From Allostella vacuolata (GTDB taxonomy: Bacteria; Pseudomonadota; Alphaproteobacteria; ATCC43930; Allostellaceae), in assembly GCA_006739055.1 (NCBI GenBank), contig AP019702.1, positions 3,373,388 through 3,437,387 on the forward strand: a stretch of 64,000 nt of DNA. Direction: 5' to 3'. Position 1 is the first letter of the stretch. Each line of letters begins with the position of its first letter. Position numbers and translations under genes: made by a program. Of this stretch, positions 9,622-15,064 are shown piece by piece. The notes below the pieces were generated by a model, which did no database searches, was not told the origin of the DNA, and was given only the letters and a program-made list of their open reading frames with translations.

Positions 9622-10167
9622 ATGGACGTCCCTACCCTTTGCCTGGCGGCACTCGCGCGCGGGCCGGCCAGCGGCTACGACATCCGCAAGGCGTTCGAGG
9701 ACGGCCCCTTCGCGCATTTCCACGAGGCGAGCTTCGGCTCCATTTATCCGGCCCTGCGGCGGCTGGCGGAGTCGGGTGCGGTCACCGTGACGGCGGAGAC
9801 GCAGGACGGGCGGCCGGACCGGCGGATCCATGCCCTGACGGATGCCGGGCGCCGGCGCCTGCGGCAGGCGCTGCTGGCGGCGCCGAAGCCGGACCAGCTG
9901 CGCTCGGATGCGCTGGTGATCCTCTTCTTCGCGCACCTGATCCCGGCGGAGACGGCGGTCGCGGTGCTGGACGGCTATCTCGCCCATCATCGCCGACTGC
10001 TGTCGCAGCTCGACTGCGACGAACTGGGCGCGGAATGCGAAACGCCCGGCCAGCGTTTCGTCCATGGCTTCGGCGTTGCGGTCTACGAAGCCGCCGTTCG
10101 CTATCTGGAAAACCAACGCGACGCTTTCGTCGACCAACTGGCTGACGACGAAGCGAAGATCGCGTAG
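9622..10167 (+). CDS. PadR family transcriptional regulator
   Basis: A 181-residue one-domain-plus-tail regulator. The N-terminal winged helix (residues about 1-75) shows the PadR hallmark SGYDIRKAFE, then GSIYPALRRLAESG and the wing DGRPDRRIHALTDAGRR. The C-terminal half is helical, as in PadR-s2 proteins that dimerise and sense small phenolic or other ligands. I placed the start at ATG 9622 because the family begins at about this point; other in-frame ATGs lie upstream. It is divergent from the TAXI TRAP operon and followed 11 bases later by the RND adaptor gene, so it may control either or both. Confidence 0.9.
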   Translation: MDVPTLCLAALARGPASGYDIRKAFEDGPFAHFHEASFGSIYPALRRLAESGAVTVTAETQDGRPDRRIHALTDAGRRRLRQALLAAPKPDQLRSDALVILFFAHLIPAETAVAVLDGYLAHHRRLLSQLDCDELGAECETPGQRFVHGFGVAVYEAAVRYLENQRDAFVDQLADDEAKIA

Positions 10168-10412
10168 CGGAGCAATCGATGCGCAGTTCCTATTGGCTGG
10201 CGCTGGCCGTGGTGGTCGGCGCCACGGCCTGGATCGCCTCCGGCCAGATCGCCGGCAACGGCGGAACGGCCGAGCCGGCCAAGCCCCCGGCCGCCATCCA
10301 GCCCCCGCCCGCAGGACGACCTGCCGGTTGGGCTCGGTGCGCCCGCGCACGACGATCCGCCGCTCCCGGTCCTGGGCGTCCGACGGCACCACCCGGACAG
10401 CCGGGGCGGGCG

Positions 10413-10803
10413 GACCAGCGTCGCCACCGTGTCGCCTTCCTTCACATAGTCGCCGAGCTCGACCGTGCGGGATTCGAGCACCCCCGGGAAGGGGGCGCGG
10501 ATGGAGGTCGAGATCCGGCGGACGAAGATCCGCCCGGCCCGGCTGGCGGAGGCCCGCGCGCTGCTGACCCAGCGCGAGGTGGAATTCCGCGCCTCGCGCA
10601 CCCTGTCCGACCGCGGCTTCCGGGCCGACAACCAGCACGCCGTCGCCCAGGCCCAGCTCGATGCCGCCCGGGCGATGGTGACGCGGATGGAGGTCGAGAT
10701 CCGGCGGACGAAGATCCGCGCCCCCTTCCCGGGGGTGCTCGAATCCCGCACGGTCGAGCTCGGCGACTATGTGAAGGAAGGCGACACGGTGGCGACGCTG
10801 GTC
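10413..10803. repeat. 90-bp perfect inverted repeat inside the adaptor gene
   Basis: Bases 10413-10502 are the exact reverse complement of 10714-10803, with no mismatch in 90 positions. The right copy is native adaptor sequence coding for the segment from APFPGVLESRTVELGDY to about DTVATLV; the left copy is an antisense insert. Identity without any drift means the duplication is very recent or technical. Confidence 0.93.
10496..10719 (+). repeat. 38-bp perfect direct repeat inside the adaptor gene
   Basis: Bases 10496-10533 equal 10682-10719 exactly, 186 bases apart (62 codons). Both code for the MEVEIRRTKIR stretch in the same frame. The left copy starts inside the last seven bases (CGCGGAT, 10496-10502) of the inverted repeat, so the switch from inverted to direct copy happened at a seven-base microhomology. 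Confidence 0.93.
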
Positions 10804-11285
10804 GACCTCGACCCGGTGATCGTGGTCGGCCACCTGACCGAGATCGAACGCGCCCGGGTCCAGATGGGGCAGACCGGCACCGCCCGGCTCGCCACCGGCC
10901 AGGAGGCGACGCTGCGCGTGCGCTACCTGTCCGCCAACGCCGACAGCGCCACCCGGACCTTCCGCATCGAGCTCGAGGCCACCAACCCGGACCTCGCCAT
11001 CATCGGCGGGGTGACCGCCGAGGTGATGCTGACGGTCGGCCGGGTCTCGGCCCATCGCATCACGCCCGCGCTGCTGGCGCTCGACGAGCAGGGCCAGATC
11101 GGGGTCAAGACGGTGGGCGAGGACGACAAGGTCTCCTTCCACCCGATCCGCGTGCTGGAGGACGGCCCGGACGGGATGTGGGTGAGCGGCCTGCCGGAAC
11201 GGGTGCGCCTGATCTCGGTCGGGCACGAATTCGTGCGGGCCGGTCAGACGGTGCGGCCGGTGGCGGCCGAGGCGGCGCGGGCGCA

Positions 11286-14200
11286 ATGAATACGCTCATC
11301 GCGGCGGCTCTCGACCGCGGCCGGGTGACGGTCGCGATCCTGGTGCTGATCCTGCTGTTCGGGGCCATGGCCTGGCGGACGATCCCCAAGGAGTCCGAGC
11401 CGGACGTCACCATCCCGATGATCTACGTCTCCATGACGCTGGAAGGGGTCTCGCCGGAGGATTCCGAGCGCCTGCTGGCGCGGCCCATGGAGAAGGAGCT
11501 GCGATCGGTCGAGGGCGTGAAGGAGATGCGCTCGAACGCCTATCTCGGCGGCAGCTACGTCATCCTGGAGTTCGAGGCCGGCTTCAACGCCGACAAGGCC
11601 CTGAACGACGTGCGCGAGAGCGTCAACCGCGCCAAGTCCGAGCTGCCCCAGGACACCGACGAGCCGCTGGTCAAGGAGGTCAATGTCAGCCTCTTCCCGG
11701 TGCTGGTCGTCACCCTGTCGGGCGAGGTGCCGGAGCGCACCCTGCTGCGCCTGGCGCGCGACCTGCGCGACCGGCTGGAGACGATTCCGGCGGTGCTGTC
11801 GGTGCGCATTGCCGGCGACCGCGAGGAGCTGGTCGAGATCGTCATCGACCCCCTGCGCATCGAGGCGTACGGCCTGTCGGCGACCGACCTGGCCAATTCC
11901 ATCTCGCGCAACAACCAGCTGATCGCCGCCGGCCAGATCGACACCGGCCAGGGCCGCTTCGCGGTCAAGGTGCCGGGCCTGTTCGAGAGCCTGCGCGAGA
12001 TCCTGGACATGCCGGTCAAGGTCGACGGCGACGCGGTGGTGCGGGTCGGCGACATCGCCGAGGTACGCCGCACCTACAAGGACCGGCAATCCTACGCCCG
12101 GGTCGACGGCCGCCCGGCGATCGCGCTCGAGGTGTCCAAGCGCATCGGCCAGAACATCATCGAGACCATCGACGAGGTGCGCCGCATCACCGACGAGGAG
12201 CGCGCCCGCTGGCCCGACAACATCGTCGTCGGCTACACCCAGGACAAATCCGACGACATCAAGATGATGCTGGCGGACCTGGAGAACAATCTCGGCATCG
12301 CGGTCCTGCTGGTGATGGTCATCGTCCTGGCCTCGCTCGGGATGCGCTCGACGCTGCTGGTCGGGGTGTCGATCGTCGGCTCCTTCCTGGCCGCCATCCT
12401 GATGCTGGCGGGGATGGGGCTGACCATCAACATCGTGGTCCTGTTCGGCCTGATCTTCGCCGCCGGCAACGTCGTCGACGGGGCCATCGTCGTCACCGAG
12501 TACGCCGACCGGCGCATGGCCGAGGGGATGGAGCGGGCCGCCGCCTACCGGATGGCGGCGCAGCGCATGGCCTGGCCCATCATCTCCGCCATCGCTACCC
12601 AGATCGCGGCGTTCCTGCCGCTGCTGTTCTGGCCGGGCGTGGTCGGCGAGTTCATGAAGTACCTGCCGATCACCCAGCTGGTGGTGCTGTCGGCATCGGT
12701 GCTGATGGCGCTCGTCTTCATCCCGGTGCTGGGCAGCTGGATCGGCCGGCGCGGCGAGGCGACGGGGCCGCTCCACGAGCCGCCGCCCGACGATGCCGGC
12801 ACCCGCCTCTATGTCCGCATGCTGGCCTGGTCGCTGCGGCGCCCGGTCGCCGTGCTGGTGGCGACGGTGGTGGCGCTGGTCGGCGTGCAATGGTGGTACG
12901 CGACCCACGGCAACGGGGTCGAGTTCTTCCCCAATGTCGAGCCGGACCTGGCGCTGGTCACCGTATCGGCGCGCGGCAACCTGTCCACCGACGAGAAGGA
13001 CCGCCTGGTCCGCGAGGTCGAGGATCGCATCCTGAAGCTGCATGCCGAGCGGGGCGAGTTCTCCACCATCTACAGCGCCACCCGGGTCCGCGAGCTGGGC
13101 AAGGACATGGCCGAGGACGTGATCGGCGTCATCCAGCTGGAATTCGCCGACTGGAAGACCCGGCGCAAGGCATCCGAGATCCTGGCCGACATCATGGCGC
13201 GCAACCGCGACCTGGCCGGCATCGTCGTCGAGAGCCGCGCCCAGGAATCCGGGCCGCCGATCGGCAAGCCGATCCAGGTGCAGCTGACCGCCCGCGACCC
13301 CGCCCTGCTGGAGCCGGCCGCCCGCCAGGTCCGTGGCCTGCTGGAGCGGATCGAGGGGCTGAAGGACATCGAGGACAGCCGCTCCCTGCCCGGCGTCGAA
13401 TGGCAGGTGCTGGTCGACCGCTCGCAGGCCGCGAAGTTCGGCGCCGACGTCGCCGCGGTCGGCAGTTCGATCCGCCTGGTCACCAACGGGCTGAAGTTCG
13501 GCGAGTACCGGCCGGACGATTCCGACGACGAGATCGACATCGTCGCCCGCTACCCGCGCGAGGAGCGCGGCATCGCCCAGCTCGGCCTGGTGCGCGTCCA
13601 GACCCCGGTCGGGCTGGTGCCGATCGAGAACTTCGTCACCCGCAAGCCCGCCCCCAGCGTGACCGAGCTGCAGCGGGTCGACGGCCGCCGGGCGTTGACG
13701 GTGAAGGCCGACGTGGTCGCGGGCGTGCTGGCCGACGACAAGATGCGCGAGCTCCGGGCGCTGATGCTGGAGCAGCCCGTTCCGCTCGGCGTGTCGGTGC
13801 GCTTCAAGGGCCAGGACGAGGAGCAGCAGAAGGCGCAGGAATTCCTGTCGAAGGCCTTCCTGGCGGCGATCTTCCTGATCTTCGTGATCCTGCTGGCGCA
13901 GTTCAACAGTCTCTACACCACGATGGTGATCCTGACCGGGGTGGTCATGTCGACCATCGGCGTGTTCATTGGCCTGCTGGTGACGGGCCAGCCCTTCGGC
14001 ATCGTCATGACCGGCATCGGCGTGGTCGCGCTGGCCGGGATCGTCGTGCAGAACAACATCGTGCTGATCGACACCTTCGACCAGCTGGTGAAGTCGATGC
14101 CGACCGTGCGCGAGGCGCTGCTGCAGACCGGCCGCGAGCGCCTGCGGCCGGTGCTGCTGACAGCGTTCAACACGGTGCTGGGATTGCTGCCGCTGATGAT

Positions 14201-14423
14201 GGGCGTCAACATCGACATCTTCCAGCGCGAGATCACGGTCGACGCGCCGGCCACCCAATGGTGGATCGGGCTGTCGACGGCGATCTGCTTCGGCCTCGGC
14301 TTCTCCACCATCCTGACGCTGCTGGTGACGCCGTGCGCCCTCATGCTGCGCGGCAATCTCGCGGACTGGCGGGCGCGCCGCCGCCAGGCCCGCGCCGCCG
14401 GCCACCCGGTCGCCGCCGAATGA
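11286..14423 (+). CDS. RND family efflux/multidrug transporter permease
   Basis: Inner-membrane proton-driven exporter of the AcrB/HAE type, 1045 aa, normal for the family. The first TM helix (about residues 13-30) precedes the porter domain starting IPKESEPDVTIP; the second block of helices contains GLIFAAGNVVDGAIVVTEYA around residue 398. In AcrB this place has the proton-relay pair Asp407-Asp408; here Asp398 is kept and the next residue is Gly399, a subfamily variant. The second half repeats the layout from about residue 520. The ATG overlaps the adaptor stop by four bases. Since the adaptor is broken, the pump may be unpaired or borrow another adaptor. No outer-membrane channel gene is adjacent. 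Confidence 0.93.
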   Translation: MNTLIAAALDRGRVTVAILVLILLFGAMAWRTIPKESEPDVTIPMIYVSMTLEGVSPEDSERLLARPMEKELRSVEGVKEMRSNAYLGGSYVILEFEAGFNADKALNDVRESVNRAKSELPQDTDEPLVKEVNVSLFPVLVVTLSGEVPERTLLRLARDLRDRLETIPAVLSVRIAGDREELVEIVIDPLRIEAYGLSATDLANSISRNNQLIAAGQIDTGQGRFAVKVPGLFESLREILDMPVKVDGDAVVRVGDIAEVRRTYKDRQSYARVDGRPAIALEVSKRIGQNIIETIDEVRRITDEERARWPDNIVVGYTQDKSDDIKMMLADLENNLGIAVLLVMVIVLASLGMRSTLLVGVSIVGSFLAAILMLAGMGLTINIVVLFGLIFAAGNVVDGAIVVTEYADRRMAEGMERAAAYRMAAQRMAWPIISAIATQIAAFLPLLFWPGVVGEFMKYLPITQLVVLSASVLMALVFIPVLGSWIGRRGEATGPLHEPPPDDAGTRLYVRMLAWSLRRPVAVLVATVVALVGVQWWYATHGNGVEFFPNVEPDLALVTVSARGNLSTDEKDRLVREVEDRILKLHAERGEFSTIYSATRVRELGKDMAEDVIGVIQLEFADWKTRRKASEILADIMARNRDLAGIVVESRAQESGPPIGKPIQVQLTARDPALLEPAARQVRGLLERIEGLKDIEDSRSLPGVEWQVLVDRSQAAKFGADVAAVGSSIRLVTNGLKFGEYRPDDSDDEIDIVARYPREERGIAQLGLVRVQTPVGLVPIENFVTRKPAPSVTELQRVDGRRALTVKADVVAGVLADDKMRELRALMLEQPVPLGVSVRFKGQDEEQQKAQEFLSKAFLAAIFLIFVILLAQFNSLYTTMVILTGVVMSTIGVFIGLLVTGQPFGIVMTGIGVVALAGIVVQNNIVLIDTFDQLVKSMPTVREALLQTGRERLRPVLLTAFNTVLGLLPLMMGVNIDIFQREITVDAPATQWWIGLSTAICFGLGFSTILTLLVTPCALMLRGNLADWRARRRQARAAGHPVAAE

Positions 14424-15064
14424 CCGGGCATCCGCCGTCGATCGCCGAGGGGATGGCGCGGCTGGTCGCGCGCGAGCCGGGCCTGGCGGCGCTGGTGACG
14501 GCGGCCGGACTGCCCCCGCCCCGCTCCCGGCCGGCCGGCTTCGGCACGCTCCTGCAGATCATCACCGGCCAGCAGGTGTCGACCCACGCGGCCGCCGCCA
14601 TCTGGCAGCGGGTCGCGCGCCTGGCCGACCCGATGACGCCGGCCGCCTGGCTGGCGCTCGACGATGCCGACCTGCGGACGGCGGGCTTCAGCCGGTCCAA
14701 GGCGATCTATGCGCGCGACCTCGCCGCCAAACTGGCCGACCGCACGGTCGACCTGGATACCCTCGATGCGCTCGACGACGAGGCGGCGATCCGCATGCTG
14801 ACGGCGATCCGCGGCATCGGCCGCTGGACGGCCGAGATCTACCTGCTCTTCGCCCATGGCCGGCCGGACGTGTGGCCGGCCGACGACATCGCCATCCAGG
14901 CCGGCTACCAGCACCTCCGCGGGCTGGCGGCGCGCCCGTCGGGCAAGGCGCTGCGCCAGGCAGGCGAGGAGTTCCGCCCCTGTCGCAGCGCCGCTGCCCT
15001 GCTGCTATGGCACCTCTACCGCCACCGCCTGCGGCCGCAGGCCGGCGAGATCGTTCCCGGCTAG
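14420..15064 (+). CDS. DNA-3-methyladenine glycosylase II family (AlkA-like)
   Basis: Base-excision repair glycosylase that removes alkylated purines from DNA. The HhH-GPD core is clear: the helix-hairpin-helix LTAIRGIGRWTAEIYLL at about residues 127-143 and the catalytic Asp in VWPADDIAI, most likely Asp156. The protein has 214 residues and lacks the N-terminal beta domain of E. coli AlkA, which is common in this shorter subfamily. Its ATG overlaps the RND stop by four bases, so it is translated with the efflux operon. The link of a repair enzyme to an exporter could reflect shared defence against toxic compounds; this is inference. Confidence 0.9.
   Translation: MTGHPPSIAEGMARLVAREPGLAALVTAAGLPPPRSRPAGFGTLLQIITGQQVSTHAAAAIWQRVARLADPMTPAAWLALDDADLRTAGFSRSKAIYARDLAAKLADRTVDLDTLDALDDEAAIRMLTAIRGIGRWTAEIYLLFAHGRPDVWPADDIAIQAGYQHLRGLAARPSGKALRQAGEEFRPCRSAAALLLWHLYRHRLRPQAGEIVPG

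Follow-up and report, generated by a model that had tools for sequence, protein, structure and literature searches.

A scrambled RND adaptor gene in Stella vacuolata, consistent with serial template switching at short microhomologies

The closest described counterparts of the locus presented here are MMBIR/FoSTeS events, including the amplification junctions of starving Escherichia coli (PMC3161906, PMC2621351), which it resembles in its multiple junctions of short microhomology, in the inverted and direct copies lying beside a deletion, and in the paired inverted switches that restore orientation. In starving E. coli, template switching occurs with strand switches at short inverted repeats (PMC3161906), a pattern matched by both strand switches in the gene studied here. 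The present event differs in being confined to about 0.6 kb of one gene, in showing no amplification, and in coming from a reference genome rather than a laboratory-selected one. The short-range template switch mutations of great apes (PMC7954356) are alike in copying locally from a nearby template and then returning, at the scale of a gene, but our case has four switches, a 90-bp copy and a bacterial host. In yeast, the fold-back insertions made at double-strand breaks (PMC11724301) are also local inverted copies whose synthesis is primed at short inverted microhomology, although they are mostly shorter than 14 bp, involve one inverted insert and have their second end captured by end joining. 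As to its family, the gene resembles RND periplasmic adaptors (TIGR01730, HlyD/AcrA type) in the score of its residual part and in its position before an AcrB-type permease gene, and departs from them in the missing first lipoyl half-motif and in an anchor that lies out of frame. The kind of event is already known; the adaptor gene of the star-shaped bacterium Stella vacuolata is a clear new example of it, and a second, racemase-like site in the same genome is also new.

The window, i.e., the whole stretch of 64,000 nucleotides that was analysed (AP019702.1, positions 3,373,388 to 3,437,387), comes from the single-contig genome (5,834,761 bp) of Stella vacuolata ATCC 43931 (G000; Allostella vacuolata in the record header), which was compared with three congeners: Stella sp. 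ATCC 35155 (G001), S. humosa ATCC 43930 (G002) and a third genome (G003). Four genes follow one another on the plus strand: an intact PadR-family regulator (9622-10167, ATG at 9622; PF03551, E 1.8e-14), the scrambled RND adaptor (10179-11289, corresponding to G000:C1:3383566-3384676; identified by family searches and by alignment with the congeners), an intact AcrB-type RND permease (11286-14423; PF00873, E 2.4e-165), and an intact HhH-GPD DNA glycosylase of AlkA type (14420-15064; PF00730, E 4.4e-15). This order of regulator, adaptor, pump and alkA is common to S. vacuolata, G001 and G002, where regulator counterparts about 50% identical adjoin the adaptor, the permease is about 87-89% identical, and the glycosylase gene likewise lies next to the pump.

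As the adaptor runs uninterrupted in all three congeners (361-363 aa), its scrambling is a derived feature of S. vacuolata. Their intact order is anchor, a post-anchor segment (B), the first lipoyl half-motif (H1), coiled coil, second lipoyl half-motif (H2) and barrel, whereas S. vacuolata reads anchor, B inverted, 90 bp of H2 inverted, 38 bp of coiled-coil tail, coiled coil, H2 and barrel. The native start and membrane anchor (10179-10311, plus strand; MRSSYW..., aligning with the congener gene starts) are followed by B as a single inverted copy (10312-10412, minus strand): translated from the minus strand, about 10304-10413 gives PAPAVRVVPSDAQDRERRIVVRGRTEPNRQVVLRA, the counterpart of the post-anchor segment of S. 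humosa, PAPAVRVAESVAENRARRIVLRGRTEPNRQVVIRA. The last 8 bases of the anchor, CCGCCCGC (10304-10311), recur inverted as GCGGGCGG (10406-10413), and because these 8 bp are common to the anchor and the inverted segment, the edges of B are uncertain by that amount. Next, in the place expected for H1, stands a 90-bp inverted copy of 10714-10803 (10413-10502, minus strand; 90/90 identical as reverse complement in an exact string test), followed by a 38-bp direct copy of 10682-10719, the tail of the coiled-coil hairpin (10496-10533, plus strand; 38/38 identical in an exact string test); the 7 bp CGCGGAT (10496-10502) belong to both copies. Native sequence then resumes on the plus strand with the coiled-coil hairpin (10534-10713, aligned with the orthologues of the three congeners), H2 itself, which is the source of the inverted copy (10714-10803, by exact string test), and the beta-barrel and C-terminal part (10804-11289), whose frame is conserved, though not that of the anchor. 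H1 is absent, i.e., about 30 codons (in S. humosa ETMGRVATIGAGRGSAVAKDTPIIELAEDD) expected 5' of the coiled coil. No copy of it above 45% protein identity was found elsewhere in the S. vacuolata genome, the best match being a paralogous adaptor at 45%, and relocation of the lost half-motif was rejected on these grounds. In net terms B was inverted, two duplications were gained, about 90 nt were lost and the frame was shifted.

The original prediction, made from the letters of the window, had described a reversal of about 100 bases after the anchor, exact 90-bp inverted and 38-bp direct copies, a switch between them within CGCGGAT and a lipoyl domain missing one part, and had proposed a comparison with orthologues in close relatives. 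Each of these observations holds against the string tests and the alignments with the whole genes of G001, G002 and G003, and the account is now refined to four junctions, 30 codons lost and a second event in the genome.

Relative to the three intact orthologues, four novel junctions are clustered within 10304-10533. The first (J1, 10304-10311) carries (CC)GCCCGC, and the last (J4, 10530-10533), joining the 38-bp copy to native sequence, carries CGC or CCGC; the ancestral S. vacuolata sequence at both is known only through the congeners. J1 counts as 6 certain bp, to which 2 more are added should S. vacuolata originally have had the alanine codon GCG of S. humosa, making 8, and J4 counts as 3-4 bp. 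Between them, J2 (10413) shows 1 bp of homology and J3 (10496-10502) 7 bp, CGCGGAT. J1 and J3 are strand changes, each at a short inverted repeat, J3 using both arms of a 7-bp hairpin with a 25-nt loop at 10682-10720, and J2 and J4 are same-strand jumps. When four junctions were placed at random breakpoints in the S. humosa gene, their summed homology averaged 3.4 bp and came to at least 17 bp in 5.5e-5 of draws. The locus therefore combines clustered junctions of short microhomology and no long homology with copies in both orientations whose sources are retained, in an arrangement derived with respect to an intact ancestral one, as template switching of the MMBIR/FoSTeS type would leave.

Local exact inverted repeats of at least 17 bp were listed in about 2.05 Mb of S. 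vacuolata, the window included, setting aside a REP-like family of dispersed hairpins and an apparent terminal repeat of an insertion sequence, present in two copies. The standouts were the 90 bp of the adaptor and one site of 43 bp; all others measured 17-18 bp, so the adaptor repeat is not a product of chance. Self-comparison of the same 2.05 Mb (at least 88% identity over at least 28 bp) returned only these two sites; applied to samples from G001 and G002, of 0.39 Mb each, it found no such event. The second site (L139 18183-18591, or G000:C1:238183-238591) lies in a tandem pair of Asp/Glu-racemase-like genes, a family named by eye from the sequence, and affects the second gene. About 480 nt of the middle of this gene are lost and replaced by 43 bp copied exactly and inverted from the preceding one, with junction overlaps, read by eye, of about 7-8 and 5 bp; the gene is whole in G001 and G002. 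It represents a plain two-switch case, like those of the great apes (PMC7954356). With two undiverged cases per 2.05 Mb, the whole genome would perhaps hold about six. One might tentatively propose that strain ATCC 43931 has undergone a burst of local fold-back rearrangements that break genes, owing to unusually active short-range template switching or to relaxed purging in culture, yet we regard this as doubtful. The second site raises the question of how frequent such events are in the strain or in its assembly, and, if they are real, a second case makes their rate within one strain measurable.

Three other kinds of repeat were noted in the course of this survey. The REP-like hairpins (GCGTCCCTCGACT..GCTCGGGATGAGG and complement, 40-150 bp apart) are abundant and apparently intergenic, numerous in both S. 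vacuolata and ATCC 35155 (e.g., L081:6804-6902, L121:16618-16763 and L139:18789-18890). Direct-repeat arrays with a period of about 228 bp (L110:11104-20000, L078:9564-14612) probably encode large repetitive proteins, and identical 17-bp inverted ends (GGCGTTGTTGCATGGAG) 1103 bp apart at L146:10074-11210 and L179:14386-15522 probably mark copies of one insertion sequence.

We interpret the adaptor locus as the probable outcome of a single recent replication-repair accident in the S. vacuolata lineage, by serial template switching of the fold-back or MMBIR/FoSTeS type, and assign this reading a probability of roughly 0.6. The growing strand would have copied the anchor and changed strand at the inverted microhomology CCGCCCGC / GCGGGC(GG) flanking segment B; B would then have been copied backwards, followed by a jump over 1 bp of homology to 10803 and backward copying of H2 to 10714. 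At CGCGGAT / ATCCGCG the strand would have returned to its original template, copied 10682-10719 forward, jumped back over 3-4 bp of homology to where the coiled coil begins, and resumed normal copying, leaving pump, regulator and alkA untouched. That this took place in a cell, as one event and in this order, is what we infer, the single-event order being a matter of parsimony and not of proof. A cellular origin as such, whether by template switching or by end joining, appears quite likely. Among the repair genes compared (RecJ, Ku and SbcCD), each of the four Stella genomes has RecJ and Ku, and none has an SbcCD match above the cut-off, a lack that may help hairpin intermediates survive. As all three are alike in the four genomes, a mutator state through repair-gene loss limited to S. 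vacuolata was rejected. A mobile element was also rejected, given that the site shows neither element ends nor a target duplication and that its pieces derive from the adaptor gene itself.

The main rival to template switching in the cell is a technical origin, which we consider rather unlikely: chimeric library molecules (snap-back or inverted) from a poorly covered GC-rich stretch would have entered the short-read graph or the local reassembly by Pilon, while the gene of the living strain is intact. The genome was assembled with Unicycler from deep MiSeq 2x300 (Nextera XT) and Nanopore libraries and polished with Pilon (PMC6687932), and chimeric reads with inverted repeats are known to arise in the preparation of short-read libraries (PMC10908179) and are reported for Nanopore ligation libraries (PMC13141652). 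Such an origin would fit the perfection of the copies and the occurrence of a second similar site in the same assembly, in a stretch of 77.7% GC, and microhomology does not tell events in living cells from library chimeras. It would fit, too, that both events found in 2.05 Mb are perfect and no decayed one was seen, and that the smaller samples from the two congeners yielded no event, although selection purging knock-outs would give the same picture. Joins of 1-8 bp, on the other hand, are too short for the overlaps of k-mer assemblers to create, and must therefore have existed in the sequenced molecules. A four-junction molecule would have had to dominate despite a deep reported coverage (330x); the adaptor locus has 73.4% GC against 70.9% for the genome, so that no special drop-out is expected there; and nothing comparable was found in 0.39 Mb of G001, a small sample of a genome produced by the same pipeline. 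The short-read artefact calls described are, moreover, of low frequency (PMC10908179). The analysis presented here rests on the assembly, and the raw reads are public (DRA008500). If technical, the event would define a class of assembly fault to screen for in hybrid assemblies of GC-rich genomes; if real, it would document with unusual legibility a natural bacterial template switch of four steps, each joint showing microhomology and sister species supplying intact genes for comparison.

A close rival in mechanism, though an improbable one in our view, is fold-back repair of a real double-strand break, healed away from a replication fork by end joining of the Ku/LigD or alternative type with fold-back templated insertions. 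Ku occurs in all four genomes, J2 has only 1 bp of homology, and the fold-back inverted insertions of yeast arise when one end primes synthesis and end joining captures the other (PMC11724301). However, a 90-bp insertion together with an inverted native block would require several rounds of such repair, most yeast fold-back inversions are shorter than 14 bp (up to about 150), and J1 (6-8 bp) and J3 (7 bp) exceed the 0-5 bp of the yeast end-joined junctions (PMC11724301). Ku is encoded twice in S. vacuolata, G001 and G002; the two genes of S. vacuolata lie about 3 kb apart in opposite orientation (G000:C1:1209702-1213924), a pair seen also in the other two. Finally, an invertible phase-variation switch turning the adaptor on and off was rejected as extremely improbable, because, although long perfect inverted repeats 211 bp apart can recombine, flipping 10503-10713 brings back neither B nor the 30 lost codons and does not correct the frame, so that neither orientation yields an intact gene, and the congener genes are uninterrupted.

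The break is expected to have cost the gene its function. With 1111 nt instead of the 1086-1092 of the congeners, the gene no longer has its anchor in the frame of 10534-11289. A GTG-started frame of 274 codons (10465-11289) keeps hairpin, H2 and barrel, with no anchor or signal; its product (10465-11286) scores 101.5 bits against TIGR01730 RND_mfp (cut-off 94.9), which together with its position before an RND permease identifies the gene as an RND adaptor by descent, while no single frame unites the anchor, both half-motifs, hairpin and barrel. Searched against the genome_contigs collection, the damaged protein retrieved distant relatives only. The frame of the anchor, read from 10179, is open for 369 codons and runs into the pump in frame and without a stop. 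This fusion was rejected as a sign of selection, since the same alternative frame is equally open in G003; it is a by-product of composition, the frame having no stop in G003 and one each in G001 and G002. The adaptor is best described as a putative fresh pseudogene, the loss of function being predicted from the absence of H1, the inversion of B and the displaced anchor, in agreement with the original prediction, which had the adaptor inactivated and the pump and alkA frames intact; the latter are borne out by family searches and frame analysis. The break may affect translation of the pump, whose start codon overlaps the stop of the adaptor (ATGA, 11286-11289), although the pump frame itself is whole.

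Between S. humosa and the remaining part of the gene, 13.9% of nonsynonymous sites and 37% of synonymous ones have diverged, against copies identical over 128 bp. The dN of this part to S. humosa (0.153) is not above those between intact congeners (S. humosa to G001, 0.186; G001 to G003, 0.199), and this comparison gives no sign of relaxed selection in the rest of the adaptor (dN/dS rows of the pump involving S. humosa, drawn from a 30-codon fragment, were left out). Because dN is not raised, the break would be recent, and an old pseudogene was rejected on this ground and on the identity of the copies; the earlier suggestion that perfect copies make the event either recent or technical is upheld, as far as sequence can tell. 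A related intact pair of adaptor (48% identical) and pump (55% identical) lies at G000:C1:4276769-4280802 (L109, L130), and no second adaptor of like closeness was found in the three congeners. Redundancy with this pair may explain why a broken adaptor is tolerated; if the event is real, this pump of S. vacuolata is left without an adaptor of its own, in a genome that keeps a related pair of pump and adaptor elsewhere.
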